Shown here: positions 7,696 to 39,201 of the stretch, in pieces
Numbering within the stretch: the first letter of the stretch is position 1
Layout of the letters: each line of letters opens with the position of its first letter
Origin: Alkalitalea saponilacus
Lineage (GTDB): Bacteria > Bacteroidota > Bacteroidia > Bacteroidales > Marinilabiliaceae
Length of the DNA: 64,000 nt
Direction: 5' to 3'
Assembly (NCBI RefSeq): GCF_900168165.1
Contig: NZ_FUYV01000002.1
Coordinates: forward strand, 186,001-250,000
Notes under the pieces: generated by a model
Seen by the model: only the letters and a program-made list of their open reading frames with translations
What the model was told of the DNA's origin: nothing
The model's database searches: none
Made by a program: the position numbers and the translations under genes

Positions 7696-7724
7696 GTATA
7701 TTGCAACATAGAAACCATTTCATT

Positions 7725-9098
7725 ATGAGCACAAAAAAAACATACAAAAAAGTCCTAAATCGCTATAATTGTTTCAGGCTGAACTATTACAGATTTTTTT
7801 CTTTAAAGAAAAATCGAAAAACGATTTTTCTTTTTGGTATTTTTAACATTTTTATCCTGTCAAACATCTGCTCCGAGCCCCTTAAAGAATATATTTCCTC
7901 TTCAATAAAAACAGTACAATTTCATCGAAACGAGTGGCCGCTATCCTACCCAATCATCAGACTAAACAGTGAACAACAACTGTTACTATCTTTCGATGAA
8001 TTAGGGAGCAGCACAAAAAACTTTCAGTACACCATTGTTTTATGCGATGCTGATTGGAATGTTTCTGACCTGATGGTTACAGAATACATTTCAGGATCGC
8101 CCATAAATCCCATCATTGATTATTCGTACTCTTTTAATACCACCATTGATTATATACATTACCGCTTAAAACTTCCCAATGAAGACATACGGCCACTTCG
8201 ATCGGGTAATTATATGCTGATGGTTTTTAAGGACTACGATCAGAATAACCCCGTATTAAAGAAAAAGTTCATGATTTCAGAACCAATGGTTAACATTGTC
8301 CCAAGAATAAGAAATACAGCTAGTTCATCCATCCGCGCCTCTCATCATGAAATAAACTTTGAGGTTCACCACCCCGGCTTTACCATCAGAAATCCAATGG
8401 ATGAAATATCAGCAACCATTATTCAGAACGGGAGAAAAGACAACCGCATTCAAGGGCTCAGACCACAGTTTGTCCGTAATGATTTATTAGACTTTAACTA
8501 TAACCGGGAAACCATGATGGAAGGAGGTAACGAGTTTCGTTACCTCGATATTAGAAGCTATCGGTTCTACTCCGATAAAATTGAGGAAATTGTGTTTCTC
8601 GACCCCTTTTATCATGTGCGATTATTTGCCGATCTACCCCGAAACCCATCATCGTATCAATACAGACAGGATTTAAACGGACGCTATTACATTGAGGTTC
8701 AAGAGAGAAACAATGCCGACCTGGAAGCAGACTACATGTTTATTCATTTCAGGCTGCGGGTGAATCAACCACAACTATCACAAAGGGTATATCTCAACGG
8801 AGCACTTACAAACTGGGAACTGAATGAAAGTTCGCAAATGCATTATAACCCAACCAACAATGCATATGAATTATCTTTACTGCTAAAGCAGGGATATTAC
8901 AACTACCACTATCTGGTAATTGAAGAAGGAGAAAAAACAGGAACGCTGTTTCCTATGGAAAACAGCTTTCAACAAACAGAAAATGATTATCTCATATTAA
9001 TATATTACAAGGGGCTTACCGATAGAGTACACAGACTCATTGGAGCTGAAACATTTAATTCAACACTGCCGCAACCAAGAAGCAGACCGGGACACTGA
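7725..9098 (+). CDS. Type IX secretion system plug protein (DUF5103 family)
   Basis: A 457-residue secreted protein recognised as the DUF5103/T9SS Plug family by blocks such as VQFHRNEWPLSYPIIRLNS, LSFDELGSSTKNFQYTIVLCDADW and GNYMLMVFKDYD. Plug binds the periplasmic side of the SprA (Sov) translocon and blocks the empty pore. Residues about 28-50 form a hydrophobic segment ending near SNICSEP; the charged stretch before it is unusually long, so the true start may lie further in than the ATG at 7725 (a TTG at 7701 is also open). It is divergent from nqrA. It fits the T9SS-exported giant protein encoded further along. It ends 295 bases before pruA, with two repeat copies between. Confidence 0.85.
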   Translation: MSTKKTYKKVLNRYNCFRLNYYRFFSLKKNRKTIFLFGIFNIFILSNICSEPLKEYISSSIKTVQFHRNEWPLSYPIIRLNSEQQLLLSFDELGSSTKNFQYTIVLCDADWNVSDLMVTEYISGSPINPIIDYSYSFNTTIDYIHYRLKLPNEDIRPLRSGNYMLMVFKDYDQNNPVLKKKFMISEPMVNIVPRIRNTASSSIRASHHEINFEVHHPGFTIRNPMDEISATIIQNGRKDNRIQGLRPQFVRNDLLDFNYNRETMMEGGNEFRYLDIRSYRFYSDKIEEIVFLDPFYHVRLFADLPRNPSSYQYRQDLNGRYYIEVQERNNADLEADYMFIHFRLRVNQPQLSQRVYLNGALTNWELNESSQMHYNPTNNAYELSLLLKQGYYNYHYLVIEEGEKTGTLFPMENSFQQTENDYLILIYYKGLTDRVHRLIGAETFNSTLPQPRSRPGH

Positions 9099-9180
9099 AA
9101 ACATAATCCACATGATAATTGGCATGGAAATTTATCGGAAGAATTTGTAATTTACGGTTAGATGCAATTTTTATTCGTAT

Positions 9181-9280
9181 ATAATTAATTTATTGGCCTC
9201 ATGGAAGTTCCATGAGCAGATATATACAGATACTTGTTGTGAGTTTCTCACTTATGGAACTTTCATTTGAAAATAATTAG
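9181..9280 (+). repeat. Intergenic structured repeat, copy 1 (with a 22-codon ORF)
   Basis: First of three copies (others at 9272-9374 and 38327-38429). It has ATTGGCC, then arms AAGTTCCATGAG and CTTATGGAACTT that pair along 12 positions (one G-U), enclosing a GTGAG-TTT-CTCAC hairpin. An intact ORF, ATG 9212 to TAG 9280, encodes 22 residues with the core LVVSFSLM. Confidence 0.75.
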
Positions 9281-9374
9281 TTTAAATCATTGGCCAAATG
9301 TAACTTCCATGAGGTGGTATTTTCATCTTCTTGTTGTGAGTTTCGCACTCATGGGCGTTTCATTTAGACAATAA
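9272..9374 (+). repeat. Intergenic structured repeat, copy 2 (with a 21-codon ORF)
   Basis: It begins AATAATTAGTTTAA, then ATTGGCC, arms AACTTCCATGAG and CTCATGGGCGTT, and the inner GTGAG-TTT-CGCAC stem. By eye it differs from copy 3 at about a dozen of some 92 positions, with no insertion or deletion. ORF ATG 9309 to TAA 9374 encodes 21 residues with the core LVVSFALMGVS. Confidence 0.75.
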
Positions 9375-9393: not shown

Positions 9394-11025
9394 ATGTCAA
9401 AAGGATTCTTTAAAATTCCAACAACCAAAAATGAACCGGTACTAAACTACTTACCCGGATCACCTGAGAGAGCAGCACTAAAAGAACAGATAGCACAATA
9501 CAAATCATCAGAAATGGACATACCCATGTTCATTGGAGGTGAAGAGGTGCGCTCTGGAAATACCGTAAGAATATTCCCGCCTCATGAAATCGAACACACT
9601 TTGGGTCACTACCATGCAGGCGACGAGACACACGTTTACCGTGCCATTGACGCAGCCACCAACGCGAAAGAAGGCTGGGAGGCACTGAACTGGGAAGAAC
9701 GGGCAGCCATATTTCTTAAAGCGGCCGACTTAATATCCGGACCATACCGTCAGAAGTTAAACGCCTCGACCATGTTGGGTCAATCAAAAAATGTTTACCA
9801 GGCTGAAATCGACGCCGCATGTGAAATGGCAGATTTTCTGAGATTCAATGTGCATTACATGACGGCCATATACAACGATCAACCCGCTTCCTCTCCGGGA
9901 ATTTGGAATCGCATGGAATACCGGCCATTGGAAGGGTTTGTGTTTGCATTAACCCCATTCAATTTTACATCCATTGCCGGCAACCTGCCTTCGGCTCCGG
10001 CTATGATGGGCAATGTGGTGATTTGGAAACCATCAAAAACAGCCATATACTCTGCACATATACTTATGGAGCTGTTTCGGGAAGCCGGTCTCCCGGACGG
10101 TGTTATTAACCTTATATTTGCTCCCGGACCGGTGGTGGCAAGAGCCGTTTTTGATCATCCCGATTTTGCAGGGTTCCATTTTACAGGTTCCACCGGGGTA
10201 TTTCAGGATATATGGAAAACCATTGGTAACAACATCCATAAATATAAATCTTACCCCAGAATAGTTGGCGAAACAGGTGGTAAAGATTTCATCATTGCAC
10301 ATAAAAGCTGTGATGCACAAGCAGTTGCCACTGCCCTGATAAGAGGTGCGTTTGAGTATCAAGGGCAAAAATGCTCTGCCGTTTCAAGAGCTTATTTGCC
10401 ATCAGGCAGATGGGATGAGATATTAAGCTACCTTCAAAAAGATATGAAGGAGATTAAAATGGGATCTCCCGAGGATTTTAGAAATTTCATGAATGCGGTG
10501 ATTGATGAACCCTCTTTTGACAAACTGGCTTCAGAAATCGATGCAGCCAAAAATCATCCGGATACAAAAATCATCTTTGGAGGAAACTACGATAAAACCC
10601 ATGGGTATTTTATTGAGCCCACCATCATACTTACCACCAATCCTTCCTATAAAACAATGGAGGAGGAGCTTTTCGGCCCAATTTTAACCATTTATGTGTA
10701 TGATGACTCAAAACTTGATGAAACACTAAATGTTCTGGATAAAACATCTATGTATGCACTAACCGGGGCCGTTTTTGCAAAGGATCGCGCAATCATTCAA
10801 AAAATAACAAAGAGGTTATCCAACGCAGCCGGCAATTTCTATGTGAACGACAAACCAACCGGGGCGGTGGTTGGTCAACAGCCATTTGGCGGCGCACGTG
10901 GGTCAGGAACCAATGATAAAGCCGGTTCAATGCTGAACATGTTGCGATGGGTGTCCCCAAGAACCATAAAAGAGAACTTCGTGCCTCCGGTTGATTTCAA
11001 GTATCCGTTTATGATGGAAGAGTAA
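9394..11025 (+). CDS. pruA: L-glutamate gamma-semialdehyde dehydrogenase (P5C dehydrogenase)
   Basis: A 543-residue aldehyde dehydrogenase of the PruA group, which oxidises glutamate semialdehyde (from proline via pyrroline-5-carboxylate) to glutamate with NAD+. Diagnostic blocks are FALTPFNFTSIAGNLPSAPA, the cofactor region FHFTGSTG, the general base E293 in GETGGK and the nucleophile C327 in QGQKCSA. The C-terminal QQPFGGARGSGTNDKAG is typical of P5C dehydrogenases. It is a stand-alone enzyme without a fused proline dehydrogenase domain. No proline dehydrogenase gene is next to it. It precedes the ftsB-like gene by 37 bases and may share its transcript. Confidence 0.95.
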   Translation: MSKGFFKIPTTKNEPVLNYLPGSPERAALKEQIAQYKSSEMDIPMFIGGEEVRSGNTVRIFPPHEIEHTLGHYHAGDETHVYRAIDAATNAKEGWEALNWEERAAIFLKAADLISGPYRQKLNASTMLGQSKNVYQAEIDAACEMADFLRFNVHYMTAIYNDQPASSPGIWNRMEYRPLEGFVFALTPFNFTSIAGNLPSAPAMMGNVVIWKPSKTAIYSAHILMELFREAGLPDGVINLIFAPGPVVARAVFDHPDFAGFHFTGSTGVFQDIWKTIGNNIHKYKSYPRIVGETGGKDFIIAHKSCDAQAVATALIRGAFEYQGQKCSAVSRAYLPSGRWDEILSYLQKDMKEIKMGSPEDFRNFMNAVIDEPSFDKLASEIDAAKNHPDTKIIFGGNYDKTHGYFIEPTIILTTNPSYKTMEEELFGPILTIYVYDDSKLDETLNVLDKTSMYALTGAVFAKDRAIIQKITKRLSNAAGNFYVNDKPTGAVVGQQPFGGARGSGTNDKAGSMLNMLRWVSPRTIKENFVPPVDFKYPFMMEE

Positions 11026-15200: not shown

Positions 15201-15495
15201 CTAACGAACCAATAAAACACTACCAGTTTTTCGGAATTCACGTCCGCTGATATATCTGCCAGAAACCTGATAAACATAAACCGCCTGTGGCGCTAAACGA
15301 CCATCGTGCATACCGTCCCAGCCCTGATCAATATCATTGGTTTCGTATATCTTTTGCCCCCAGCGGTTAAATATCTCCAGTTTGAACTCATCCACATCCT
15401 TGTAGGCTGGCTTAAACACTACCACATATTCAGCTGAAGGATCAATACCCCCTGAAGCTCCATCCGGTCTGGGACGGAAGGCATTCGGGAACCTT
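15201..15495 (-). other. T9SS type B (gliding-associated, CHU_C-like) C-terminal sorting domain
   Basis: About 97 residues closing the giant protein: RFPNAFRPRPDG, then YVVVFKPAYKDVDEFKLEIFNRWGQKIYET, WDGMHDGRLAPQAVYVYQV and RKTGSVLLVR. The NRWG and W-G-Q patterns are diagnostic of type B domains, which are not cleaved by the same route as type A and usually need a PorP/SprF partner. Confidence 0.92.
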
Positions 15496-18400
15496 ACAAA
15501 ACCTTGTTGATAGGCTGTAATAATTCCAGATTGTGTGAAAGTATTTTCACAGCCCCTGTCATTGGTAACGGTTAAGGAAACATCATATACGCCTTCATCT
15601 CTGTATTCATACGATGGATTTCTGTCTGTACTGGTGGTGCCATCACCAAAATTCCAAAGCCAACTGATGGCATCTATCGATAGGTCATAAAACCTGGCCT
15701 TTTCACCCGGCAAGTAAACGACCTGCGGATTTACAGTAAAATCAGCCACCGGATGATCGTGCACCACAATTTCCTTGAAATATTCTCCATCTCTACCATC
15801 AGGCCCGGGTGCTATCAACCTGACATTATATACTCCAGGCGATTCGAATACATGAACCGGATTTCTCTCTTCTGAAGAATGACCATCGTCAAAATCCCAA
15901 ATATAATCACTACCTCCTACCGAATAGTTGGTAAACAATACTCTTAGCGGGAAACAACCAGAATCCACATCTGTGATAAAGCCGGCATCAGGTACTACTC
16001 TGTAATCAATGCTGACCTGATCAGAGGCAATACATCCTTCCACTTCGACTTCCCAACGGAATGTATTAATGCCATCACTTAAGTTATACACATTTGTATT
16101 GAAAAAGGTTTCATCTTCAAATTCAGCAGTACTTGTTCCCACAATAATCCAGCGGGCATTCAGATCTCCGGCATTGTTGGCATTCAACAATGCTCTTGGC
16201 TCATACACCACCTGATCTTCTCCGGCATATGCATTGGTTTTGTGGCTTACCACAGTCATCTCATCCTCGGTTGAACAAGAACCATAAGATATGGACCATC
16301 TGTAAATATTCTCACCAAAACCGACATTACGTACAACCGAGTTGTACTGATCGGGATTATCGAAAGTTCCTTTACCTTTCACCACAGTCCATTGTCCTGT
16401 TCCTGATTCAGGGTTATTTGCATTCAATGTGAGATAATTTTCACAAATCCCAATGCGATCCGAACCTGCATCTGCTCGGTCGGGAACCATATTAAAGACA
16501 GTTATCACATCCGAAGAAAAACAATTGCCTTTCTCAATAATCCATCGGAACTGATTCATTCCAAATTCAAGGTTACGAACGGTTGTTTTGGGATCATTCT
16601 CATTGTCGAATTCTCCATATCCACTCATCCGCTCCCAACGGCCTGTTGCTCCATGTAATGGGACATTGGCATCAAGGACATGAGAGTCTTTGCAATCCTC
16701 AATGTCGGGACCTGCATTAGCCCTATTGGGCGTATTGTTCTCAATTGTAATAGTTGCCGAACGTGCACAATTACCCTGCTCAACAGTCCACCTTAAGATA
16801 TTGGTTCCGTGATCAAGATTGGTAATGGTAGCCCTCGGATTATATGGATCACTCAGGTTTCCACCACCCTGAACAAAACTCCAGCTACCTGTTCCAAATT
16901 CTGGGGCATCTGCCTTCAGAGTGAATGTTCTTTCACAAACCTCTTCATAATCACTACCTGCATTGGGCTCATAAGGATCATTGTTTCTAATGAGAACCTC
17001 TTCCGATAAAGCACATCCTTCTACTCGCCAGATTGTCCATCTGAGGATATTGTCGCCTTTACCCAAATTTGTAACTTGGGTATTATGGAGGTTTTCATTA
17101 GCAAAATCAGCCGATCCAGTTAGCACGACCCATTCACCCTGCTCTCCGGCTCCCAAAGGTGAAGCTTCCAATGTTGTATTATCACGACACAGAATTTGAG
17201 TATTTCCCGCATTAGGTGTAATGGGGAGATTATTGGTAATGATTACGTCATCAGAATGCGTACACCCTTTATAACGTACAGTCCATCTCAGTGTATTACT
17301 CCCTTTTCCAAGATTGGTAACCCGTGTTGTAGGACTGTTGGGGTTATCAAACACAGCAGCTCCTAATCCACCGGGAACAGACCAAGTACCGACACCTAAC
17401 CCGGGATTACTTCCGGCCAGAACAGCCTCATTGCTGCAATAAGTCCGATCGGGACCTGCATTGGCAGCAATATGATTATTCTCAATGGTTACCTCATCGT
17501 AAGAAATACAATCCTGATGACGAATGGTATAACGGAAAATATTCTCTCCAAAACCAAGCCCTGAAACAGTAGTAACGGCAGAATTGTCTGGTGAATTAAT
17601 CAATCCACTTCCATCAATAAGTGTCCAAACAGAGGTTTCCACATCCCTTTTAACATTGCCTGTAAGCGTAGCGTTTTCCACGCAGAACGCATCATCTTCT
17701 CCAGCAAATGCCTGAGTTGCCATGTTGTTGGTGATGGTCAATTCATCCGTATGGCTACAGTTTCTGTGATTAACGGTCCAAGTGATCACATTCTCTCCAC
17801 GTTGTAAATTCCGAACTACAGTATTTGCAGAGTGATTATTATCAAAATTACCTCGGCCCTGAGCAATCCCCCAAGTACCTGAACCGGCCATTGGTGCTCT
17901 GGCAGATACGCCCAAAGTATCGGCACAATGCGTATAATCATCCAACAGAATTTCTGCCTCGATATGATCATTATAAATAATCACCTCATCATAATCAGAA
18001 CAACTTTCATAAGAAACCGTCCAACGGAAGCGGTTGGCTCCTAAAGCTAATCCTTCAATCATGGTGTTGGGATTATTTGGCTCATCAATAACGCCTCCTC
18101 CTGAAATTCGGCTCCATGTTCCAGTTGCTTGACCAGATCCGGCAGATCCGGCAGGCCATGCTTTCATTTCATATTCATCAGAACACTGGCGATACGTGGG
18201 AGGACCGGCATAAGCCGGTAACACCTGGTTGTTAATTAAAGTGGCCGTATCAGTTAACGTACAGTAATCGGTAGCAATTTCATATACTAAAACATTTTCG
18301 CCTTGCGACAAATTGTGTACCCTGTTGTCATTAAAAGTAATCTCACCGGGTGTAATAGCTCTCCATGTGGCTACTCCATGATTGGGCAAAATTGGTTGCG

Positions 18401-21400
18401 GCCTTAACTGCACACTACCGGTACATGTTGGAGCATAGGGACCTCCGGCATTTGGTGTTGATGGGGTGCCATTGATAATGGTTATGCGGGTTTCACGTGG
18501 GGGGCAATTCCCTTTGGTCAAACTATACACAAATTCATTGATACCACGAGTAAGTCCTGTGACATAAGTACTATAATCCTCATCGTCATCAATTTCTCCT
18601 CCTCCTTGTACCTGCACCCATTTGGGGGTTCCCATGTCTATTCCAATGTTCAATCCAGAGTTGTTCCCAATTAAGGTCACTGAATCGCCACAAATGGCAT
18701 TATCCATTATAAGACCATTAAAATCAAACCTAGCAATGGGTTCTCCCGGTTGATTATTGGTAATGATAACTTCTGAATAGCTACTAGTATTAGAATATTG
18801 AATAGTCCATCTCAACTCGTTTGGCCCGGGGCTTAAATTGGTTACCCTAGTCCGTGGATTGTTTGGTTCATCAAAATTAGCAGTACCAGAAACCACCGAC
18901 CATGTTCCAATGGCTACATCCGGATCATTTGCATTTAAAGTTGTTGAATTTGTACAGACTTCACGGTTAAGGCCTGCATTGGCTTCAGTCACTTGTCCAT
19001 TTAAAATGGTTACTTCATCAGACACCGAACAATCACCGTGGGTTACTGTCCATCTGAAAACATTTTCCCCTCTTCGAAGATTAGTAACGGTTGCATTGAA
19101 CAAAGTTGGCTCTAAAATACTGCCCCCACCGGAAATCAATTGCCATCTACCAGTTCCCTGATCAGGTTCAAGCGCTTCAAGTTTATGAGTAACATCATTT
19201 ATCTCTCTATATGGACCGGCATTTACAGGATCAGGCATATTGTTAGTTACAATTACAGTATCTCTGCTAACACAGGTACCGTTGGTAATGGTCCAAATCA
19301 ATTCTGTTCTACCTAGATCCACACTAATTGTGGCATTGTGCTTGCCTCTTTCATCCAAAGGTATGGTTGCACCACCTGAACCAAACGCTGTTTGCCATGA
19401 CCCAGTCATTCCGCTAGGAACAGGACTTCCATTCATAGTGACCGCTCGTGTACAGGTTGGAAAGTCTTTTCCTGCATCCACATCCACATGAAGGTTGTTT
19501 ACAACCAAGTCTGCAAATGTGCTACATGCTCCGTTGGTAATGGTCCAACGGAATATGTTCTCGCCGTATCCCAGATTGGTTACTCCAGTTACGGGATTCT
19601 CATAATTGCCAATAATACCGCTGCCCTTAACAATACTCCATCGTCCGGTTCCTTGTCCATCAGGGTCATTACCGATTAACTCAGTTTTGAAATCACATTT
19701 GGTTTGCGTACTTCCAACCGTAGCTGTGGCAGGGGAGTTATTGGTAATTATTACGCTGTCTGTACTAATACAACCATTTTTAAGGATTCTCCATTCCAAA
19801 ATATTCTCTCCAAGCCCCAGATCGGTAATGTGAGGATTGTGGATGTTTCCATTATTGAACGTTCCAATGCCTTCGATAAACTCCCAACCACTTTCATCTG
19901 CGCCTGCAGGAACCTCAGTTCCGGCAAGAAACACTTCATTTTCACACACCTCTTGTGGTGGCCCGGCATTTACTAATACTTTGTTGTTGCGAATGGTTAC
20001 TTCATCGTAATCGGAACAGCCTTTGTTGGTGACTGTCCAGCGTAAAACAATTTCTCCTTCGCTGAAATTAGAGACAGTAATCGTAGAACTTTCTGGATTG
20101 GGAGTTATGGTTGTAAATCCCTTAATAATGCTCCATCGGCCGTCTCCATTAGTTACTTCTTCAGCTTCTAGAGTAATAACATCCTGATCACAACGATTTA
20201 TTGTTTTGGCTCCATTGATGATGGCATCATCGGGACGATGATTCATTATCACAACATCGGCATAACTATCACAACCATTTTGCGTGATGGTCCAACGCAA
20301 AACATTGCGATCGGGAGCCAGGTTGCTTACCGTCGTTTCATAAGATGCTGCATTGGCAAAAGCGGCAGTTGAACCAACAGGTTCAACCACACTCCAAACA
20401 CCGGAGGTGTTTGGATAGTCCGGCACTTCTCGGCCATACAAATTGGCTGACCCATCACATACAATCAACTTATCGGTATAAGCATAAACGGACAATTGAT
20501 TGTTACGGATGGTCACATCATCAGAAGCACTGCATCCGAACTCAGATGTTACAGTCCATCTTAAAATGGTATTATTTTCCGGAAGCACATTGCTGATTTC
20601 TGAATTGTGCTCAGTTGGATCATTTATGGTTACGGGCATTGATCCGGGAACAACCGTCCATAAACCGCTTTCACCGGGTTGTAATTCATCTGCATTAAGC
20701 GTATGTGTTGCTAAACAGATATGTTGATCCGCTCCGGCATTGACGGTAGGCAAAGGACGTACATGAAATGTATGTGTGGCTGTATGCACCGATTCACCAC
20801 AATCATTAGCCGGGGTAACCGAAATTTGACCTGTAAAAACAGCCAAATCGGGATCCGGTGTGATACGTATGGTTGAACCTGTTTGGCTACCAACGATGGT
20901 GAACCCTACTGGTATATCCCAATTATAACTTGTAGCATGTATCACCTCGTTGGTACTGAAAACGACCTCCGATGATCCCTGGCAAATATCCACAAGCCCT
21001 ATAATGGCTGCCGTTTGCAGGGGCAACGGATCTACCGTTACATAATGTCTTTGTGTTTCCCCGCCACAACTATTTACTGCTCTTACTGTGATATAGCCGG
21101 ATTGAGCACTGTCTGTAAAATGAACAAGAATTTCTCTGGTGTTTTCTCCTGATAATATTTCCGCATTTGTGGGAACAGTCCATTCGTAACCATCGGCATG
21201 CAATACTGCAGGCACTGAGAAAACATATTCACTGCCCTGGCATACCACCGCCTCGCCAACAATGGAATCAGGAACAACAGGCCGCTGACGAACAATAACG
21301 TTGGCAGGCTCGCCCAAAACAATACCGGGACATCCGGGAATATATAAAAAATCATGAGTATCAAACACATATCCTATTTCAAAACGTGCGGTACTCCGTG

Positions 21401-24400
21401 GCACTACACCGATCTTAAGAGTATCATCAACAAGCTGATCTCTGGTAACAGTCAAATCACGTCGAATTGGGTCCAATGTCCCTGTCGGATCAATCTCCCA
21501 ATACCTGAGTCGCCATGAACCGGTATTAGCAGGATTAAATAACACTTGTAATTCAATACTTTCTTCTATACAAATTTCACCATAATCAACAGGCACAAAC
21601 TCAACAGTGGTTGGCTGATCGACGGTTATAATCGCAGAACCGTCACCGCTGTTCGTGCAATGATAATCGGTAACTTCCAGAATGGTATAAGTGCTGGTAA
21701 CAGCCGGCGCAACATTCTCAATGGTATAGGTTGATTCGGTTATTCCATTGATTTCAAAGCTTTCTATTCCATTGGAGTATGTAATGTTCCATGGTGGTGT
21801 TCCGGTAAGCTCAACTTTTAAAGAATCGGAGCTGCCAAAACAAATCCTTTTATCTCCGGATATATAAGCAGTAGGCAAAGGATTTACCACCACTACAGGG
21901 TTGCCGGTGAATGTTCCGGCTGAACAGGTTGTAGCGGGATTGATTAAGCTAGCAATAGAATATTCATTGATTCCAACCGGGGGCGTTTCACCCGCATCAA
22001 ACACCATAGGTGTTTGATTAACCGTGACAACAGTTCCATCGTTTAATGTTAACTCCAAAGGAGTGGTCACCACATCCCAATTGCTTACAATGACCTGCAA
22101 TTGCGGAATATTTCCTTCGCAAATGGAATTGCTTCCGGGCATTACAGTTAAAACAGCATGGGCCTCGGGTTGTGTTACAACTATGTTATTGAACGTTTTA
22201 GTACAATCGTAGTTGGTGTTGAAATTCCCATCTCCGCTGAAATCGTCCCAAACAGTAACCTGATAAGGGCCTGCGATTAGGTTTTCAAACAGAAACTGCT
22301 CCTCAACGATCTCGGTTCGGCTGATGCCATTTCCTGAAAGACGAATGCGATATCTACCGGGAGCAGTATTTGGCGAACCTCCAGATACTTCTACCCGGAT
22401 GCTGCCATCACTGCCTGCATAACAGGTTACATCATCTATAACTTCAACATTAACAATGAATTCATCGGGTTCATCTATGGTTACATCCGTTTCCTCAACA
22501 ATACCCAAAGCATCGGTAGCGGTTATTTGGTATATTCCTGCTTGCAAATTATTTAAGGTCAGTGTTGTTCCGTAATGGGTTGTATTTGTGCCCGGCCCAA
22601 TCACCACAATGTCATACCCCGGTTGGCCGCCATCCATTTTCGGATTGCCTCCGGAGACAACTATTTCAATAGAGCCATTGGCTGCACCATGGCACGGGCC
22701 AATGTCATCAACTTGTGTATCGATGGTGAGTGGAGTATCTGGTTCTGTAATTCGCTGCTGAAGCGTTGCTTCACAGCCATTTCCATCGGTCACGGTTACA
22801 CGATACAACCCTGCTACTCGGTTTTCAATGCGATGAGTTGTCTCACCAACTACTTCATTCCAAACATCCGAATCTTCATCATAAATCTCCCAAACATAGG
22901 TATATCCGAACGAACCACCTGTGGTAATCACTTCAATGGCACCTGTGGCGTTGCCATTAATGGCAACATTAACAACGTCCACAATCTCTATATTGAGAGC
23001 AAGTTCAGGCTCTGTTACCTCAAAAGGTCCAAAATTTGCCACACAACCTTCGGAATCTTCAACTCGCAGATGATAACTGCCGGCAGAGAGTCCTTCCTGA
23101 TCTTGAGCGGTATTGACCAGTCCGCCACCTGTGGTGGTAGTCCATTGATATGTGTACGGCGCAGTGCCTCCTGTAACTTCTATATCAATTTCGCCGGTGA
23201 ATTCACCTTTGCAAAGGACATCGGTGATGGTTGCCACTGCATTTATTGGAGCAGAAGGTTGCAAAACATCTACCGTTTTGGTAGTATAACAACCGGATAA
23301 ATTCACGTCTCTAACGAAAACCGTATAGCTTCCGCTGGTTAAATCATCAAAGATATGTGTTAAGGCGGGAACGGCAGTCCAGCCGGCTCCATCAAGTGAG
23401 AATTGATATTCTCCTGTACCACCGAAAACTGTAGCTTCTATTCTTCCATTGCTATCGCCATGACAAGTAACATTTACTACAGATAAACCAATATCCAGTT
23501 GGTTGATAAACTCTACTTCAATGTTATCAATTAGAAAATCGCAGCCTCGTGCATCGGTAACCGTAACACGATAAAGGCCTGCCCGCAAACCACTTTGATT
23601 CATATCAGAGGCATTGACAGCCGTTCCTGAAATGGTTTCCCAGTTAAATGTATAGGGCGCAACACCATGGGAGATGTTTAAAGAGATGGCTCCATTGTGC
23701 ACACCGGGACAAGAGGCATTGGTCACCGCCGCCTCAACCTGCAATGGTCTTGTTAAAATGAGACTCTTTTCGATGGCGCAATTGCCCACACCATTGTCTA
23801 TCATGGTGATGGTGTATTCTCCGCCGGGTAAGTCGGTTTGTTCCAACCCATTAAAACCGGCAGGGATTTCGGGGCCAGCCCATACATAAGTGTAAGAGCC
23901 ACTTCCTCCAACAGGGTCAACTATTGCTATCCGATTGTTGCCGTCACAGTCGGTATCGTTAATCTCAAGGGTGAAATTGAGCGGTGCCGGTTCAATAATT
24001 TCAAAACTATGAACCAACACACAATTGTTTTCGTCTCTGATGGTGACGGTATATTCACCACCTTCCAAATCTCTTTGAATCCTTTGTCCCTGAACAATGC
24101 CGGGTGCAGATGCAGGCGCCCAGGTTAATGTATAGCTTCCTGTACCGCCAGTAATTTCGGTAATATCGATGATGCCATTGGCATCGCCGGCACAATCAAG
24201 GTGCTGTTTGGTGAAGTTGATGGCGATGGGTGCCGGTTCGTTCAGAGTTACTTCAAGCTCTTCAGTGTATGAATCTCCTGAAACAACACAAGTTTGATTA
24301 ATGTCGGTCACCACAACGGTATAGGTTCCGGCTTCAAGTCCATCAATGTCCTGGGTATTGGCAGTGAAACCATTACCGACTTTAGTCCATGCATATTGGT

Positions 24401-27400
24401 AATTTCCACTTCCGCCGGAGACTACCAAATCAATCATGCCATTGTTTCCACCGTTGCAACTGATGTGCGTAACATTGGCAGATAGCTCCATTCTGCCGGG
24501 AACCATTATAGTTCGTTCAGTCTCACAACCTCGGGAGTCGCGTACCAGCGCCTTATAAGTTCCGGCTTTGGTAATGCCTGAAATTGATTGGTTGCCTGCA
24601 TCGACAGTGAAAGCACCGGGGCCGCTCCATGTGATATTGTATGGAGAAACGCCACCTGTGAGGCTCTCTATTTCAATGGATCGGCTGTAGGGTTCACAAT
24701 CATCCAATATGGTAGCAAGCACGTAAGTAACCGCCGGTGGTTCGGGCACAGTAAAGGAGCGAATCACTTCACAACCCTCGCCATCCACAACGCGCAATTC
24801 GTAAACGCCTGCTGTTAATCCGGTTCTGGTATCGGTTCCTGCTTCGCCATTCCAATAGAATTGAACAGGCGGGGCTGCTCCTGGCACATTATTAACAAGA
24901 ATAGCACCGTTGTTTCCTCCATTACAAGAAACAGGTGATACAGAAGCTTCAATGACCAACGTTTTGCCATCCTGAACCACAAAGGTTTCGGTTACGGTGC
25001 AAGCACGAATGACATCTGTAACCTCAACAATGTATGAACCGGCACTTAATCCGCTCAAATCCTGTTCGGTTGATGAGAATGTAGGTTCTCCAACCTTGGT
25101 CCACGCGTAAGTGTATGTTCCGCTTCCTCCTTCGATGTTCACATCAATGGCACCATTATTGGCTCCTGCGCAGGTGGCGTTGGTAACATTGCCTGAAACT
25201 ACCAGATGAGTCAGCTCAAATGTTTCTACAATGGCAGGGCAGGCAGCTGTTGTTGCTACATTTCGATTGGTAATGGTGAGTTCATATCTCGCGGCACGTA
25301 AATTAGATATGGTTACAGGTTGTGTATCACCATCCAAAATGGTTAGACCAATGGGCGGTTGAGCGGGGTTGGTTAAGTTGCGCAAAACGGCTTCATAATC
25401 GCCACCGGGTAGTCCGCCTGTCACTTCAAAAGTAACAAATCCTGATGTGCTTTGAGCTGCATCGCAATCAATTCCAAAATCTAATGAAACCAAAGAAATT
25501 GGAGCAGCAGGTTCACCGATGACATTATCGGGAACAACTATTTCGCAACCGGCGCCATCGTTATCGATTACACGTACGGTATAATCTCCGGCTATCAGGT
25601 TTTCGATATTAAAGAGTGGGCCGGAGCCGTTTGCCGTTCCTGTTCCATAATCAATTAGGTAAGGAGCCGTGCCTCCGGTGACACTCACCACCAAGCGTCC
25701 TGAATTATCGCCGGTACAGGTGTTTACATCAAAGGCATTTACCGAAACCACCATTTCGGAGGGTTCGGTGATGGTGAATACATCTGACACAGCAGAGCAT
25801 CCAGTTCCTGCTTGTTCAGTAATTTCCAAAACATAGTTGCCAGCAGCGGCATTTTCCAAGTTTCTTTCTGTGGAAATAGTTACAGACGGATCACTGAGTT
25901 CATACCAGTTGTAATTGTAGGCCACGTTGCCACGACCACCAGTCACATTAATGGTAATACTGCCATCATCAGCACCAAAACAACTGATGTTGTTTGGTGT
26001 TCCGGTTATGCTGATTTCATCGGGTTGAGAAATAAAAATCTCCTCAACAGGTGATGCACAACCATTGGCATCCTGTACCATCAGGCGGTATCTGTCGGCG
26101 AGTAAATCGTCATACAACTGAGCGGCATTATCGGCCACATTACGAGTCCGTGATGCACCGTTGTCCGGCCAAAGGGTATAGCTATATCCGGGAGATCCTC
26201 CGGTGGCACTGAATGACAGACGTCCGTCGGAACTACCAAAACAGGTAGCATCAACAGTAGATTCAATATTCAACACCAGTTGAGCAGGCTGTGTGATCTC
26301 AATATTGGGTATTGAGAATGTTTCACCGTTATCATCCTCAACAACAGCATTGTAGAAACCTGCCGATAATCCGGTGTACGTATAATAGTTGCCTGATACA
26401 GAAAAAGCAGGGACATTATCACCTGATGAACGAGTCAACGTTACTGTATATGGGAAAGTTCCACCTGTGGCTCTCAGCTCAATAGTTCCGGTGTTTTCTC
26501 CAAAGCATAGCGGATTTGAACTGTCTTCAAGTATTAACTGTAAGGGATGCCCGGGTTCCAGAATTTCAACAACAATGGTTGAAGTACAATCATTGTCATC
26601 GAAAACAGTGGCGGTGTAAACGCCGGCAGTTAAACCTGACAAGTCGGTTTGGTTTGTGGGTAATCCTGCAATTGGGTCTCCATCCGCATCGACGCCACTC
26701 CAGAATATGGTATAACCTCCGGTGCCTCCGGTAATACTTATGGATAGCGCACCGTTGTTGCCGCCATTGGTAGTAACATGTTGAACCGAAGTCATTGTTA
26801 CATTCAGCGGCGAGGTTGGTTCTGTAATTTCATAAGGAGCGGTTACACTACACCCTTCAGAGTCGGTCACTAATACTCTGTAAGTGCCGGCCCGCAAGTT
26901 TTGAGGTGAAGCCGTGGTTCCATCGTTGGCTGCTCCAAGAAGAGTCCATCCGCCTCCGGATAGTTGACGTTCCCATACATAATTGTATGGTTGTGTATCG
27001 TTACCTCCAACAACGGTGATGGTGATGCTTCCGGTTGATTCTCCGTAACACGCAACATTTGCAAGTATTGCATTGGTAATTTGGATGCTCTGAGCGGGCT
27101 CAGTGATTTCAATGGCATCTGCAATAACTGCAAAACAATCAGTATTTCCTTGTTCTCTTATATATACAGTATAGCCCCCTGCTTCCAGATTGCTGAAAGA
27201 ATAATATGCGGTGTTATTTGTAACCCAAACATTATTGTCTATGGAAAACTCGTAGTTTCCGGATCCACCGGTTCCCATTACCCGGAAAGAGCCATCGTTG
27301 CCACCATGGCAGCTGACATTCTGATGGTTGACTATAACTTCAGACACAACTAGTTGTGTTGGTTCGGTGATTATAACCTCCAGCAATGCACTCACACATG

Positions 27401-30400
27401 CATCATCGGCTGCATCATGCACCCTAAGTTGATAAGTTGCCGCTGACAGACCTTCAAACAGCGGGCTAGGCTGCCAATCGGTTCCATCCAGCGAGTAAAC
27501 ATAATTACCGCTTCCTCCTGTGGCTCTGGCCTCAATAAAACCATCAGCTATACCATTACAGGATGCATTTTCCCTGTCCTCCACAAATACCTGTAGTTGA
27601 GCAGGCTGTGAAATGTTGACCGGAGCCATTTGATAAACGCAAAGATTTGCATCACGTACACGGATGTTATGGTTTCCGGCTGAAAGGCCGGTGAATTCGT
27701 TGGAGGGTTGCCATGTCGTTCCGGCATCAATAGAATATTCGTATGGTGATGAACCTCCTTGTGCTTCAACACGGATGATGCCGTTGTTGCCGTTGTAACA
27801 GGTAACATTATCCTTCTGTTGAACCAGCAAAGTTAAAGCAGCCGGCTCATTAACAGGAACATCCGGTGATTGAACCTGACAGTCTGGGTTTGCAGCATCT
27901 TTTACATAAACCGTATAGTTATCGGCAGTCAGGTTTTCAAACTGATAATTGAATGTTCCGTCAAGATTATCTGTAAGTTGGGATGCCACTGAGAACCAGT
28001 TATCTCCATCCAACGAGAACCTGTATGTTTCTGAGCCTCCCGATACTGTTACTGTTAGTTCTCCATTGTTTCCACCGTTGCATGAAACGTGATTATCAAC
28101 CGTAACATTTTCAATGACCAAGGGCGTTAAAGGTGCTATGGTAAAAGATTCTTCTACCAAACAACCATTGGCATCTTCAACACGAACGGAGTAGGAACCG
28201 GCGGCGAGGCTGCTAATGTTTTCGTCGTTGCCAATAACAGTTCCCCCTTGCGACCAAAATACAGAATAGTTTGGGGTTCCTCCTGAAATGGAAACGGTTG
28301 CGGTTCCGGAATCCACATCAGAGCAAGCTGTTGGGGTTACAGAAACAGAAATATCTAATGGAGACGCAGGTTGATTAATGGTTATTTCGTTGCTTTGAAT
28401 GACACAGCCATTAACATCCGTGATGGTTACCCTGTATGTTCCGGCAATTCTGTTGTTCATAACAGACGACGTACCTATTTCAACCCATGTTCCTCCATCA
28501 TTGATCTCCCAAACATAACCATATGGAGCAGTTCCTCCGGATGCTGTAACTGAAAGAGATCCATTGTTGTCTCCATGGCATAAAACATGTGTTGCTGATA
28601 AATCTGAGATAACAAGCGGTACAGGTTGAGTTATTTGTACCGACAATGAGCGCATACATGATGGTGCCTCAACATCCCTGACTCTTACATTATAAGTATT
28701 TGCTGAGAGGTCAGAGAATAAAGGAATGTCAACCCATGTTGCTCCATTATTAATAGAGAACTCATAATCTCCGCTTCCTCCACCGGCCACAACACGGAAT
28801 TCACCGGTAGCATTTCCGAAACAATCCACATGTACTCTGGAACCGGGCACCAAATCAAGTGTAAGCGCATCAGGTTCTGAAATAACAATTGGATCCGATT
28901 CGTAAACGCATCTTGTATTAAAATCCCGAACAGAAACAGTATATGTGCCTGCGGGACGATTGATAAACCGCCGTGCATCCGATCCAACGTTGGCCGACTG
29001 CCAATTTACACCATCCAAAGAAAACTGATATACAGCATCCGTTGCGCCACCTGAAGCAGTAACCAAAAACTCTCCGGTACTGGAACCATGACAAAGAACA
29101 TCAACATGTTCTGATAAATCTTCGTTGACAACAATTGGATTAATGGTTTCGATTTCAATGGTTCCCGAAACGATGCATCCATTGGCATCTTCTACAATGT
29201 AGGTGTAATCTCCGGCTGGTTTTTGGATAATGGATAAACCAGTTCCAATAATATTATTTCCGGAATCGCGCCATTCAATGTCAAAGCCGTTAGGATAAGT
29301 GGTTAAATCAGTAAATGGAGTGCCTCCGGTGATTGATATGGTGGCAGAACCTTCGCAATCAAGACCATCTGTGCAAGGCATACAACCTACGGCCTGTGCC
29401 GATGCATTTACTGATAGTGGCAATGATGGTTCGTTAATGGTGATGGAAACAGGTGCAACCAATTCACAACCAATGGCATCCTCAACTTCAACGAAATAGG
29501 TTCCGGCATCAAGATTGGTGAAATTTCCGGAAGCGTTGGAGGCAATCAATGTTGTTCCATCCGACTCATACAAGTAGTAAACATAAGGAACGCTCCCTCC
29601 TGAGGCTGTAACCGAAGCAGCCCCATCGTTGCCCGATGTACAGGAGACATTTTGCTTGTTGATGGATGCAGAAACATTATTTCTTCTTACCTCCACTACT
29701 CCATTCATCGGATTGCTACATCCAGAAGCAGATACTGCTTGCACGATATAATCCCCTACAACATTTACCGGATCAAATTCCAGAACTCCACCTGTGGCGA
29801 TAATGGTTTCAACAGGAGATGCTAAATTGTAATTAAGAATCAAGTGATATGTTATTCCACTTTCAGAATCTTCCAATCCGATGGTAACCCCGGCATCCCC
29901 AGCACAGAATCGACCGGCATGAGGTTCACTGCTCAATGGAGTAACATTATATACCAGAGGGGATTCCAGAACCTCAAAGGTTTTGGTTCTCTCAGTAGTA
30001 CAGCCATTAATATGGGTGTAAGTGTAAGTTATCAGATGTGACCCGCCTGTTAAACCTGACGGATCAAATGTGGCCAGCCCATCATCAAGAATTCCATTAT
30101 CAACACCCGGGCCTGCAAAATTCCCACTGCCGGTAAACCCTCCTGAAACGAAACTTCCGGTTAAAGTAATCATCCCGGCATCCTGACAATATTGAATGGG
30201 GTCGGCCGTGCCTCCGAAATTAACCGCAGGCGCACGGTCAACATGAACAGTTCTGTTAACCACCGCAATACAACCATCATTGGCTGTATTATCAAAAGTA
30301 TAGGTAATGGTGTAAGTTCCTTCCCCAACGTAAGCTGGTGAAAAATAGACATTTTCTGCTGAAATTGATGTTCCGTCACTATCTCCTTCGGTTGCAACGT

Positions 30401-33400
30401 AAAGAGGAGATCTTCCGGCACCATTTAAGGTAGATGTGAAAGTATAAGTGGCTCCTGCCACACCGGGATTATTCACTTCCAGCAAGATGGGACCGGCGGC
30501 ATTTTCGCAATATCTGTCTGAGAGGTTATCGATGCTAATGGGATAAGGATCAATAACACGAACAGTCAGTGAAGATGATGAATTACATGCCGATGTAGAT
30601 ATGGTATAAGTTATTTCATGGTCTCCGTCGCCCGCTATGGCAGGACTAAATGTTTGGGTTGAGACCCAGGAGCCACCACTGAAATAACCTCCTGATTGTT
30701 CAGGGATCAATTGCACTGAATTAATGGTACTACAAAACTGAGTGGCATCAGGATTCAAACTAAAGTTGGTGTTCAATTCAGCTTCCACCACCACAACTTC
30801 TTCTATTTCGTTTACGCAATCTGCGGCATCGGTATATTGGTAAACAGCAACGTAGGTTCCGGCTCCCGATACCGAGGGATTAAATATTAAAGGATCCAGA
30901 GCCGTTGTGTTATCTCTGTTTGCAATTTCCGTTCTTACACCAAATTCATCTACCGCATAAACGATTAATCTGCCACCCTCCTCTATTCCATACCATTCCT
31001 GAACCCCGTCTTCTACACAATAAATGGAACTTAGTCCTTCAATTGAAAGCGTTGTTCCCACCTGAACAGTTTGAGAATAAGAAGCACGACAACCGGTAAC
31101 TGGATCTATATAGTCGAACACAATGGTATGCAAACCATTGCCGGCTGCAACAGGATCAAAATCAGCCGTTCCAGGACCGGTATTTGTAATACCGGAACCT
31201 GAAAATCCGGAGCCGGCATTGTCAACAATATTTTCCGGAACAGTGTAATTGAAGTAAGCCTGTAAATTAATAACTGAACCATCCTGACAAGTAATCCCGG
31301 GCAATCCAGAGAAGCGTACGACATCTGCCAAATCTTCCTGAAACAGAGATGAACGTTGCACGGTAGAGATACATCCATTTGGATCGGTGTATGTATAAAC
31401 AAAGGAGAATGATCTTTCTCCGTAATTATTCACGGCATTGGTCACATTAAAAGTCAACGTGCCATTTCCATTGTCTGTAAAGAAATTTGGAAGAGGGCTA
31501 AAACCAACTACACTCCAGGAACCATTTGCATTTGCAGGGCTTCCGCTGACGGTTTGAGAACCGGCATCGGCACAATAAGAACCGGGCAGTCCGGGAATGT
31601 TGATTACCGGATTTGCATTTACGGTTACTGAACCGTTCATATCGGCAAAACAGCCTCCGGCAGAACCACGTATGGTATAGGTTCCGGGGGGATATTTTTC
31701 AGGTCCAAAGAAAATCGAATTACCAGTGCTACCAGACTGGTCTGAGCCATAATCAACTCCATCTCTAAAGAGAAAATAGGTAACCGATGATTGAGAATTA
31801 TTCAACGTGATGGTCACATCATCTTCCTGACAATAAGTTCCCGGTGTAACATTATAAACATTAGGCTGCTGATACAATATCAACTCTGACGGCAGTTTAA
31901 CTTCACATCCGCCATTATCGGCTGTGACCATATATGTTCCCGCAACGGACTGGCTACCAAAATCTATGGGGTTTCCATCTCCAGTTCTTGTAGCAAGCGG
32001 TGAACCGGTAATGCTGTTTCTGTACAAGCGATATACAACATCTGTTTCAGATCCATTGTTTAAGGAAATGTTATGGCCAGTAGTTCCCGAACAGGCAGGA
32101 GAAGCTGGTGTGTATAAAGTATAAGTCGTATTAGGCAAAGAAAGCACCTCAACAGTTCCAAGATCCCTGAAACACCCATGTGTGTTTGATGCCCGTATTG
32201 AATAGACTCCCACCGTCGTCAATCCTGTATCGAAAGTAAACCCGACTCCGGTTGTCCCTGTAACGGTTTCAATAACAACTCCACCTGCGTCAAGTATTGA
32301 GTACTCTACCCCGGTTTCGGAATTTCCCAATGTTACAAAAAGTTCAATCCCTTCGCAGCCTATGCGTGGTTCTGCGATGGTTTGTAATGCAGGGCGCGGA
32401 GCAATAAACACAGTATTATCTAAAAACACTTCACAATTACCTCTGGTTGCTTTAACCTCGTAGCTTCCTGTAGTAGTGATACCGTCAAACAGAAGATTTC
32501 CGCCATTTCCAAGTCTGGGAGTTCGCACCTCTGTCCCATCGCGATAAAGAGAATAGTATACATCCGCCTGTGAATTAGCCACAGTGATGGCATGTGTGCT
32601 AGCTGCACACCCTGTTCCTGCAAGCGATACTCCCAAATCGGACAAAGGCCTCGCAGCAATAATAACTGACCCATCCATTGGAGTTTCACAATCCCCTCGT
32701 GAAGCGCGAATAGTATAGGTTCCTGCAATGGCATTGGTCACATTAAAAGTAATGGAACTGCCAGTTCCTGAGCGTTGCTGTACAAACACTCCACCTCGCA
32801 ATAAATCATAGGTAACATCTGATTCACTTCCGCTGAGCTGAATTGAAATGTCTTCCGAAGAACATCCTCCACCTGAAACCTCGAATACAGTGGGATAATC
32901 GTTGACCTCTGCGACAAAAGCATCAGGAATATCAGTTATTTCACATGTAGTACCTGAAACAATCGAAGTTATGGTAAAAGTAGTATTTTCAGTAATTTCG
33001 CTGCCCCAGGAAATTATTCCGGATGCTGCACCATCAGAATTAGAATCATGAAGGTTCAAAGTACGTGTATCTGAACCATTTGACAAGGTTACTTCCCAAG
33101 TATCTCCAACCTGACCGATGATCTCAATAATAAAAGAGGGATCGTAAGGTCCGCATGGGGCACCTGAAATTAAATCAATAGTGGCCATGGGAGACAAAAC
33201 AGTAACCGGCCCCTCCTGCCTGTAACATAAAGGATTGGCTGTTTCAAATATTCGAAAATCATACGAACCGATATCGTTAACGGTAATGGTATTGGAACCT
33301 CCCGTTAATTCTCCGGTTGCATAGGTTGAACCATAATTATACCATCGATAACTGACATCCTCACCCTCAGGGTGAAGTCCGTTCATAGTACCTGTAATAT

Positions 33401-34310: not shown

Positions 34311-34862
34311 AATAGAATTCAAATAATTTGCACACGCAAAAACAACATTGTTTCTAAAAATAATCAAACAACGTTAAATATCAACAACATTCGCTACCAT
34401 TCATACGCAAATCTAGCAAAAAAAGTTAGGCAAAACCCTTAAAAAACAATGTTAAAATAAGATTGACGAGGAAATTGACAAGGAAGATCAAGACAATCAG
34501 CAGGAAACTAATGGAAGAAAAAACGAATTTAATAGAAGAAAGACACCGATTCGTCAAAAGTACGACTATCATGACTTACAATATCGTCAAAGGTATATAA
34601 AAACCATTCGTCGCCATCTGTATCGGCAATACAAATTCATGTTAACATTTATAACTATCCCCGTACACTCTGGAATATCGTCATACACGAACAGATTAAC
34701 ATCAAAAAACATAGGAAAGCTAGATTAGAAAGCATTCTCAGGGATAATCCATCTACCTGTGGGACAGCTCCAAAACAGGTTAAATCCAAAGTTCAATTGA
34801 TTACTACTGAAAAGCTCTCTGATAATTTTCAGCTAGTAACTGACAAATGAAAATTTACTCAT
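34311..34862. other. 552-base gene-poor gap upstream of the giant gene
   Basis: It holds no convincing gene. Near the giant gene's start, TTTG-N20-TGTTTTTG on the minus strand is a possible promoter with one mismatch in the -7 box. On the plus strand, overlapping open frames without starts run through about 34455-34850. The last (ending LVTDK, TGA at 34848-34850) has coding-like composition, so a decayed gene is possible but unproven. Confidence 0.4.
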
Positions 34863-35614: not shown

Positions 35615-35669
35615 AACAGAGCATAAAAACTAAGTTCCGTATGACGGAACTTAGTTTTTATGCTCTGTT
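35615..35669 (-). terminator. Perfect 26-bp hairpin after the response-regulator gene
   Basis: Bases 35615-35640 and 35644-35669 are exact reverse complements around a 3-base loop (ATG). The stem includes GCATAAAAACTAAGTTCCGT and T5/A5 stretches. It begins 22 bases after the stop at 35691. The position fits transcript termination, but the arm length and perfection are unusual for a simple terminator. Confidence 0.7.
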
Positions 35670-38195: not shown

Positions 38196-38326
38196 GAAGC
38201 ATCTTTTTAATTTTAAGCAATTTACAAACCTAACAGTTAATTCCCTATCCACTTGGTAATCAATCAAACAAATAAGATTAATGAACTATTATACTAATAG
38301 ACCTTAAGTGCAAAATTTCATCCGTA

Positions 38327-38429
38327 AATAATTAGTTTAAGTTATTGGCCGAATGGAACTTCCATGAGTTGTTGTTTTCATATACTTGTTGTGAGTTACT
38401 CACTCATGGGCGTTTCATCAGGAAGTTAA
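38327..38429 (+). repeat. Intergenic structured repeat, copy 3 (with a 21-codon ORF)
   Basis: Same element as at 9272-9374, opening with the identical AATAATTAGTTTAA and carrying arms AACTTCCATGAG and CTCATGGGCGTT and the GTGAG-TTA-CTCAC stem. ORF ATG 38364 to TAA 38429 encodes 21 residues with the core LVVSYSLMGVS. It abuts and overlaps the end of rnc by 12 bases in antisense. Confidence 0.75.
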
Positions 38430-39197
38430 AAGGGTCTGATTCTGAAGTCCAGAAAGATCAAACGCAAAAGAATCGAGGGATTTCAAGGCATGACCGGCTG
38501 CATTTTGCTGTGCTTCTTTTTTTGACGCCCCATTTCCTTCCCCAATCACTTGACCATCTATACAAGCTTTGGCTATAAAAGCTGTTTCCCGGGAAGGCAA
38601 ATTTGGGTGATGCTCTTCAGTTATAAAATGGATGTCGCATCTGTTTTTTTGTGCCCATTCGATGAGAAGTGACTTAAAATTGGTATCGTTCTCTACAAGC
38701 GTCTCCTCATCGTTGAAGTGCTCCATGATACCGGAAAGAATAAATGAGCGGGCGCATAAATAACCCCGGTCAAGATAAACGGCTCCAATTAGCGCTTCGA
38801 GGGCATCACCTGGTATATGGGTTTGAGCCAGATCATTCAATGGCTGAGTTTTAATGAGTTTATTCAGCCCCATTTTTGCAGCCAAATGATTAAGTGTTGT
38901 TCTATTTACAATGCGGGAACGCATTTTAGTGAGGGCTCCCTCATCTTTTTCGGGGAAACGCATGAACAATTCATGCGCAACAACTGCGCTCAACACAGCA
39001 TCCCCAAGGTATTCGAGTCGTTCATTGTTTACAGGCATGCCAGATTCATCGCGCTTCATGAGGGATTTATGCTGAAATGCCAAACGGTAGTATTCCAGGT
39101 TTTTTGGATAAAACCCCGTTATTTTATGGATTAAACAAGAAAACTTCTTACCCTTTCGGGTAAGAAGTTTTACTGATGTGAATAAATCTTTTAACAC
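38418..39197 (-). CDS. rnc: Ribonuclease III
   Basis: A 259-residue dsRNA endonuclease that processes rRNA precursors and structured mRNAs. The catalytic domain has the signature NNERLEYLGDAVLSAVVAHELF with acidic metal ligands, and the second acidic site in GDALEALIGAVYLDRG. A C-terminal dsRNA-binding domain (about 175-245) has FITEEHHPNLPSRETAFIAKACIDGQVIGEGNGASKKEAQQNAAGHAL. I choose the GTG at 39197, five bases after the fabF stop, because MLKD...FYPKN resembles other Bacteroidota RNase III starts; an ATG at 39251 inside fabF is also open. It is the third gene of acpP-fabF-rnc. A strong hairpin lies in its first codons. Confidence 0.93.
   Translation of the reverse strand: MLKDLFTSVKLLTRKGKKFSCLIHKITGFYPKNLEYYRLAFQHKSLMKRDESGMPVNNERLEYLGDAVLSAVVAHELFMRFPEKDEGALTKMRSRIVNRTTLNHLAAKMGLNKLIKTQPLNDLAQTHIPGDALEALIGAVYLDRGYLCARSFILSGIMEHFNDEETLVENDTNFKSLLIEWAQKNRCDIHFITEEHHPNLPSRETAFIAKACIDGQVIGEGNGASKKEAQQNAAGHALKSLDSFAFDLSGLQNQTLLTS
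39140..39171 (-). promoter_or_regulatory. 14-bp hairpin with GAAA tetraloop at the 5' end of rnc
   Basis: On the transcribed (minus) strand, AAAACTTCTTACCC and GGGTAAGAAGTTTT are perfect complements around the loop GAAA. It spans codons about 9-19 of rnc and ends in TTTTC. The position suggests an RNase III cleavage site for autoregulation (as in the rncO leader of E. coli) or partial attenuation between fabF and rnc. Confidence 0.6.
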
Positions 39198-39201
39198 AAT
39201 G

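Follow-up and report, generated by a model that had tools for sequence, protein, structure and literature searches.

A short repeat of ~97–104 nt, present three times in the window (the whole 64,000-nt stretch of DNA analyzed here), is likely a non-autonomous mobile DNA that is targeted to the word TTCAT and moved in trans as a dumbbell-folded circle. The element has moved recently, it has inserted at pre-existing TTCAT or near-TTCAT words, its two helices covary, and the family to which it belongs is widespread in one order of Bacteroidetes.

Copies in the Window

The three copies make up the longest direct-repeat family of the window and align well with one another, with a similarity far above chance; all are on the plus strand. 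Copy 1 (9170–9266), delimited by alignment and sequence and matched by a covariance model at 9169–9260 (E 8.4e-5), has a degenerate left word, TTTAT (9170–9174), and an AAG/CTT variant of the outer pair. Its right end, CTTTCAT (9260–9266), is common to copy 2, so that the two copies stand head to tail with one TTTCAT between them. Copy 2 (9262–9363; delimited by sequence, with a model match at 9261–9363, E 9.9e-16) begins with TTCAT (9262–9266); its TTG (9267–9269) pairs with CAA (9295–9297), and its right part contains ATGTAAC (9298–9304), CCATGAG (9307–9313), CTCATGG (9348–9354), and GTTTCAT (9357–9363). Copy 3 (38317–38418; delimited by sequence, with a model match at 38316–38418, E 1.3e-16) likewise begins with TTCAT (38317–38321), followed by CCG (38322–38324), which faces CGA (38350–38352) with one C·A, and its right part contains ATGGAAC (38353–38359), CCATGAG (38362–38368), CTCATGG (38403–38409), and GTTTCAT (38412–38418).

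The neighboring genes lie outside the element. A type 9 secretion system plug-like gene is found upstream of copy 1 (7701–9098, plus strand; Pfam PF17116), an aldehyde dehydrogenase family gene downstream of copy 2 (9394–11025, plus strand; Pfam PF00171), and a ribonuclease III-like gene ends at copy 3 (38418–39251, minus strand; Pfam PF14622, PF00636, and PF00035), the last base of copy 3 overlapping the stop codon of that frame. The three related copies described in an earlier note on this DNA are real, but the limits given there are several bases off, the true units running from TTCAT to TTTCAT. The inner hairpin and outer arms that it described are present in the window copies, and the exchange of AAC..GTT for AAG..CTT that it pointed out in copy 1 is seen again in a copy from a sister genome (L223); another copy, L066, has the same last pair as this variant. 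Other repeats of the window include a 26-bp perfect inverted repeat with a 3-nt loop (35615–35669), a second dispersed repeat of 86 nt whose copies are 81% identical (41491–41576 and 47835–47920), and the internal repeats of one 6388 aa ORF on the minus strand (15201–34367).

Family Size and Distribution

A plain DNA search of the host's own genome returned 34 matches at E ≤ 1; at E ≤ 1.3e-4 there remained 24, the three window copies among them. The covariance model was built from 50 copies, part of them from the same genome; its alignment represents 50 of 65 non-redundant copies, long, truncated, or odd copies having been omitted by hand. With this model, at least 38 matches were found in the host genome at E ≤ 0.001, and at the same threshold the element was matched in at least 46 of 71 genomes of the family, belonging to at least 17 of 21 genera, with at least 1,108 matches across those 46 genomes (the sum over the covariance-model table). 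Sampling of the order at E ≤ 1e-6 gave at least 63 positive genomes out of 393, four of which belong to the family, and at least 43 of 206 sampled genera carry the element; eight of the ten order-level loci that were fetched fit the display pattern, with ends and core unchanged. Named genomes were also searched by pattern, which recovered 54 stretches with 62 copies, mainly from Thermophagus xiamenensis, the other carriers being Anaerophaga thermohalophila (two strains), Marinilabilia rubra, an uncultured Marinilabiliaceae bin, and one Bacteroidales bin. Judged from sequence, two genomes of our numbered set, G002 and G003, would be the two Anaerophaga strains and G053 would be T. xiamenensis. 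No description of the element was found in the literature searched, which was mainly open-access.

Unit Architecture and Insertion Sites

The unit is placed directly after one TTCAT and its own end is a second TTCAT, so copies can chain head to tail. Of 146 copies, 131 have TTCAT at their left boundary, and 43 of these 131 left junctions are tandem, i.e., they lie in arrays; the copy lists behind the boundary, pair, and wobble counts were restricted to hits close to the profile's left end and thus favor conserved left ends. Only 65 of the 88 non-tandem copies have a T immediately before the left TTCAT, so the crossover is not simply G^TTTCAT. End variation among the 62 pattern copies, scored by eye, was ~4 on the left versus ~9 on the right, numbers too small to serve as a clue to the crossover. 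Copies with no nearby right end were inspected as candidates for longer, autonomous forms; they look degenerate or end-altered. L014, an otherwise pristine copy, departs from the usual right-end sequence at two bases, perhaps a vestige of junction resolution. In four copies (L018, L022, L024, and L030), modules such as CCCGATGTATCGGG or GGCTAAGGCCGA..TTCG have been swapped in, which gives the impression of loop exchange between repeat families.

Five 97-nt units on five contigs (L006, L007, L008, L011, and L012) are identical, which indicates recent movement; the element is for this reason not an inert repeat. The state of the sites before insertion was read by joining the flanks of 14 insertions and searching for them in a sister species, where 12 aligned. 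L010 and L024 had no sister match spanning the junction and the match for L018 stops at the junction, which leaves 11 element-free sister sites legible across it. The word at these sites is exactly TTCAT in six (L004, L007, L008, L009, L011, and L014) and one base off in the other five (L001, L003, L006, L012, and L016). Insertion thus occurs at TTCAT or a near relative, and such precise insertions point to a mobile DNA element; that 5 of 11 sister sites are not exactly TTCAT counts against the mechanism proposed below. Seven of the 11 sites are nearly wholly covered by a single match (four with TTCAT, three one base off), and the matches at the other four (L001, L004, L008, and L012) extend only ~25–45 nt beyond the junction on one side. 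A single region compared within the Anaerophaga pair in search of an element-free site gave an ambiguous picture. Nothing beyond the word itself is duplicated at the sister-compared sites, where the second TTCAT is also readable as a 5-bp duplication. One insertion, L014, splits a HepT-like gene and leaves 38 aa of its frame; the sister counterpart is intact (115 aa; PF01934, HepT-like, E 2.4e-28).

Insertion at Gene Starts

TTCAT is the reverse complement of ATGAA, and many insertions consequently lie exactly before start codons. An ORF of at least 80 aa on the complementary strand begins exactly at 36 of the 88 non-tandem left junctions (41 of 88 for at least 50 aa), where an ORF read from the junction may start within a gene; the background over the 2067 TTCAT words that these loci contain is 17% at 80 aa and 21% at 50 aa. 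When only TTCAT words at gene starts or in intergenic DNA are counted (n = 650), 117 (18%) are at gene starts, a control that takes the most upstream ATG of ORFs of at least 100 aa and thus undercounts true starts. Relative to this expectation of 18%, the excess at the junctions (36 of 88) has p 5e-7, the control being a crude one for target choice and for the loss of in-gene insertions. Target choice and such loss explain part of the frequency of gene starts; since 36 of 88 exceeds the 18% of the control, a further factor may favor them.

Paired Structure and Folding

In the left helix, CATNNG/CNNATG, CAT and the opening NNG triplet of the element pair with CNN and ATG. Its variable triples are fully paired in 96 of 139 copies, compared with a mean of 54 and a maximum of 68 in shuffles, and they covary as TCG/CGA, CCG/CGG, CAG/CTG, TTG/CAA, and TAG/CTA; in other genera, GCG/CGC, ATG/CAT, ACG/CGT, CTG/CAG, and GTG/CAC were read by eye. 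The right helix, AAC-TC-GCATG/CATGC-TC-GTT, shows exchanges of G-C to C-G and of A-U to G-C. Over the named structure, 96.4% of cells are paired (90.0 when shuffled) and 52 cells are changed on both sides (18.7 when shuffled; 500 shuffles); sliding the structure by one to three columns leaves at most 33.7% of cells paired. Counts of pairs changed on both sides (5 vs. 4.4 in shuffles) and of further pair types (18 vs. 15.9) show no excess. The shuffles leave the relatedness among copies in place. The paired arms and the compensatory change claimed in the earlier note hold, by covariation, in this much larger set of copies.

Both helices use a central ATGGAA, which can pair with both TTTCAT words and adjoins helices that covary. 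For a linear copy this double use seems contradictory. Once the unit is circular, or where two units of an array meet, a single TTTCAT stands between neighbors, and the left and right helices fuse into a continuous stem that has a 2 × 2 TC/TC bulge and two loops. Folding of 50 units as DNA circles gave a mean z of −2.35 on the plus strand and −2.26 on the minus strand, with 30 and 26 of the 50, respectively, below −2; the linear plus-strand mean was −1.46, the circular and linear values comparing slightly different sequences. Six circular plus-strand folds were inspected: four are dumbbells, one of which has two left pairs only, the fold of L014 differs from a dumbbell, and that of L091 is without the left helix. 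A linear copy can partly form both helices. From the covariation and the folding together we infer a circular single-stranded dumbbell intermediate, and the element is probably recognized in folded form.

Peptide and Regulatory RNA Readings

The earlier note had described a conserved tiny ORF on the plus strand. Its ATG exists, copy 3 again reads as 21 codons, and the 21–22 codon frame is intact in all three window copies, as would be expected of a micropeptide gene repeated three times. Conservation fails in the wider family: in a survey of 102 copies that fit the core pattern and are mutually different over 90 nt, the frame from this ATG has at least 20 codons in 31 and stops after two codons in 35, the LVVS core is present in 6, and 71 have fewer than 20 codons; an insert of ~20 nt in four long forms from the host genome (L015, L016, L018, and L019; read by eye) ends the frame before that core. 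With the frame broken in 71 of 102 copies, the micropeptide was rejected as a conserved feature and a micropeptide gene is an extremely improbable explanation of the repeat.

A cis-regulatory leader or other structured RNA, retained before genes and spread by duplication, would agree with the exact ORF starts at 36 of 88 non-tandem left junctions against 18% expected and with the position of the start codon within the left helix. It would also agree with part of the wobble pairs, from which the earlier note had favored a plus-strand RNA. One G·T is fixed (107 of 119 right helices); among the remaining helix pairs, counted with the fixed pair omitted and with cells that are not independent events, the plus strand has 51 G·T versus 23 A·C. 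This leans toward the plus strand, but the most variable left pair, counted separately, points the other way, with 24 A·C versus 2 G·T; taken together, the wobble pairs do not decide the strand. A regulatory RNA is nonetheless improbable, since about half of the non-tandem copies are away from such a start, many copies lie in arrays (43 of 131 left junctions), L014 splits a gene, and Rfam 15 matched nothing in the window at gathering threshold except one tRNA. Searched against Rfam, three copy-bearing loci yielded a tRNA and otherwise only microRNA matches below threshold (best 27.7 bits against 99, E 0.039).

Candidate Enzymes and Known Systems

The moving enzyme could be an IS200/IS605-like HUH nuclease, which we place short of an even chance; a tyrosine recombinase acting on a folded strand, as at attC, and some other enzyme are each conceivable but doubtful. 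Recurrent neighbor genes were considered as mobilizers, and none of the 14 clusters of three or more, judged by eye, is mobilizer-like. Shared descent confounds both of the enzyme co-occurrence comparisons given below.

As PMC6006769 describes them, the ends of IS200/IS605 elements carry a guide tetranucleotide 5′ of the hairpin foot; the target lies next to the left end, and the right end finishes with another tetranucleotide. The element can be laid out in the same way: as the substrate of an IS200/IS605-like HUH Y1 transposase, it would have as its guide the ATGG found at the right hairpin's 5′ foot, TCAT as right-end bases, TTCAT as flanking target, and a single-strand circle as intermediate. 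Shared features are insertion 3′ of a specific short word with no further target duplication (one TTCAT at 6 of 11 sister sites), a hairpin whose 5′ foot carries a guide-like word able to pair with right-end bases, and the circular single-strand intermediate that we propose for the element. Y1_Tnp is found at E ≤ 0.001 in 40 of 46 element-bearing and in 13 of 25 element-free genomes. This detailed reading is nevertheless a doubtful one. The element is ~100 nt and gene-less, with one guide-like word common to both ends, and no matching TnpA/TnpB was found; six genomes carry it with no Y1_Tnp at E ≤ 0.001 (G005, 76% complete, G017, G022, G031, G034, and G043), and a TnpB domain was found at that threshold in 0 of 11 genomes. 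By eye, the five Y1 genes of the host genome sit among other repeats, as does the sole significant Y1 of the element-rich G053, and none of the host's Y1 loci carries the element. No Y1 gene is bounded by the element at any of the 34 fetched Y1 loci, and only one of these (L165, from the copy-rich G002) holds element matches, two in 3.3 kb. The lagging-strand mechanism of IS608 and ISDra2 predicts an orientation bias. No bias is seen among the best matches listed (55 for G053 and 54 for G002), where neighboring copies have no common orientation (G053, 14 of 30 pairs; G002, 5 of 13).

Two classes of small repeat offer further comparisons. Like REP and REPIN sequences (mobilized by RAYT, TnpAREP), the element is a short, dispersed, palindromic, non-autonomous, and mostly extragenic sequence; it differs from them in that its consensus has no GT[AG]G tag at the hairpin foot and in its 97–104 nt length with fixed ends. 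A RAYT/REP origin was rejected, the inspected RAYT-like Y1 loci in the host genome and G053 being flanked by other repeats. Like a MITE it is small, non-autonomous, and multi-copy, but its ends are not inverted repeats of each other and it has a fixed TTCAT instead of a variable target duplication. Among the Y1 loci, L169 (G053:C53) encodes a 180-aa Y1 protein with the words NHLH and YIHMNP, flanked by copies of a different palindrome; the protein resembles Bacteroidetes subclass 2.6 as delineated in the relevant part of PMC6006769. Y1_Tnp-like matches also occur within open frames of >1000 aa in G002, G003, G038, and G054.

Integron attC sites are described in PMC2727003 as an R box, an unpaired spacer (UCS), an L box, and a variable end (VTS), and the layout of the element is similar. 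As an attC-like substrate of a tyrosine recombinase on a folded single strand, it would comprise an R-like GTTTCAT/ATGGAAC, a 2 × 2 unpaired spacer, an L-like stem, and a variable terminal loop. The head-to-tail units and the imperfect AAC/GTT stem, with its unpaired spacer, second stem, and variable terminal loop, recall attC, and the stem is continuous in circles and arrays. At E < 1e-35, related tyrosine recombinases occur in 39 of the 46 genomes that carry the element and in 5 of the 25 that do not (Fisher p 1e-7); the threshold was picked after the table had been seen, and the contrast includes one genus of 15 genomes with neither the element nor the recombinase. The query was a host-genome protein, itself a match to the integron-integrase profile below its cut-off, and because it comes from the host genome, relatedness lowers the recombinase E. 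An attC-like substrate is on balance unlikely. The integron-integrase cut-off (TIGR02249) was reached in 0 of 12 genomes; two genomes rich in the element, G039 (at least 38 matches) and G040 (at least 37), have no such recombinase hit; and the ten regions fetched around the recombinase genes contain no array, only one divergent copy within ~4 kb in G000 and in its sister counterpart, and two partial, weak matches. The element, moreover, is scattered through the chromosome, targets TTCAT, has an extra left helix (CATNNG/CNNATG), and has T before the left TTCAT in only 65 of 88 non-tandem copies. The R box of attC has the consensus RYYYAAC/GTTRRRY. When ATGGAAC/GTTTCAT is compared with it, only AAC/GTT and the outermost R/Y agree, so that the other R-box letters differ and the element does not have an attC R box. 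One recombinase locus, L205:307–2337 (G000:C53), contains a 676 aa open frame in which two tyrosine-recombinase units are apparently joined into a single chain, and the catalytic part of the first unit looks degenerate by eye; relatives of this frame in other genomes of the family are open frames of 685–751 aa.

Proposed Mechanism and Significance

We favor a mechanism in which the moving form of the TTCAT-targeted element would be a circular single strand folded as a dumbbell, its stem pairing NNG-TTTCAT-G-(TC/TC)-GCATG with CNN-ATGGAA-C between two loops. An enzyme supplied in trans would recognize this fold, and the central ATGGAA, by pairing with TTCAT, would set the target. The element would then be inserted directly 3′ of TTCAT, and its own terminal TTCAT would let a new copy land behind an old one, giving rise to head-to-tail arrays. 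Insertion just before a start codon would keep the gene intact because TTCAT is the reverse complement of ATGAA.

More tentatively, and with less than even confidence, we suggest that the element may be a previously undescribed, order-wide, minimal mobile DNA: a single-stranded dumbbell circle of ~100 nt in which one internal word chooses TTCAT and which lands before genes that remain unbroken, its mover perhaps a tyrosine recombinase outside any integron or an HUH nuclease not yet linked to it. For annotation, the element accounts for many intergenic repeats and for the small ORFs inside them. If the proposed mechanism is right, a gene-less mobile element of ~100 bases is carried in many lineages of one order, and the structure in which it moves is legible from covariation; its target word would permit harmless entry at start codons, a simple way not to kill the host, and the family would provide a natural test of folded single-strand recombination sites outside integrons and IS200/IS605.
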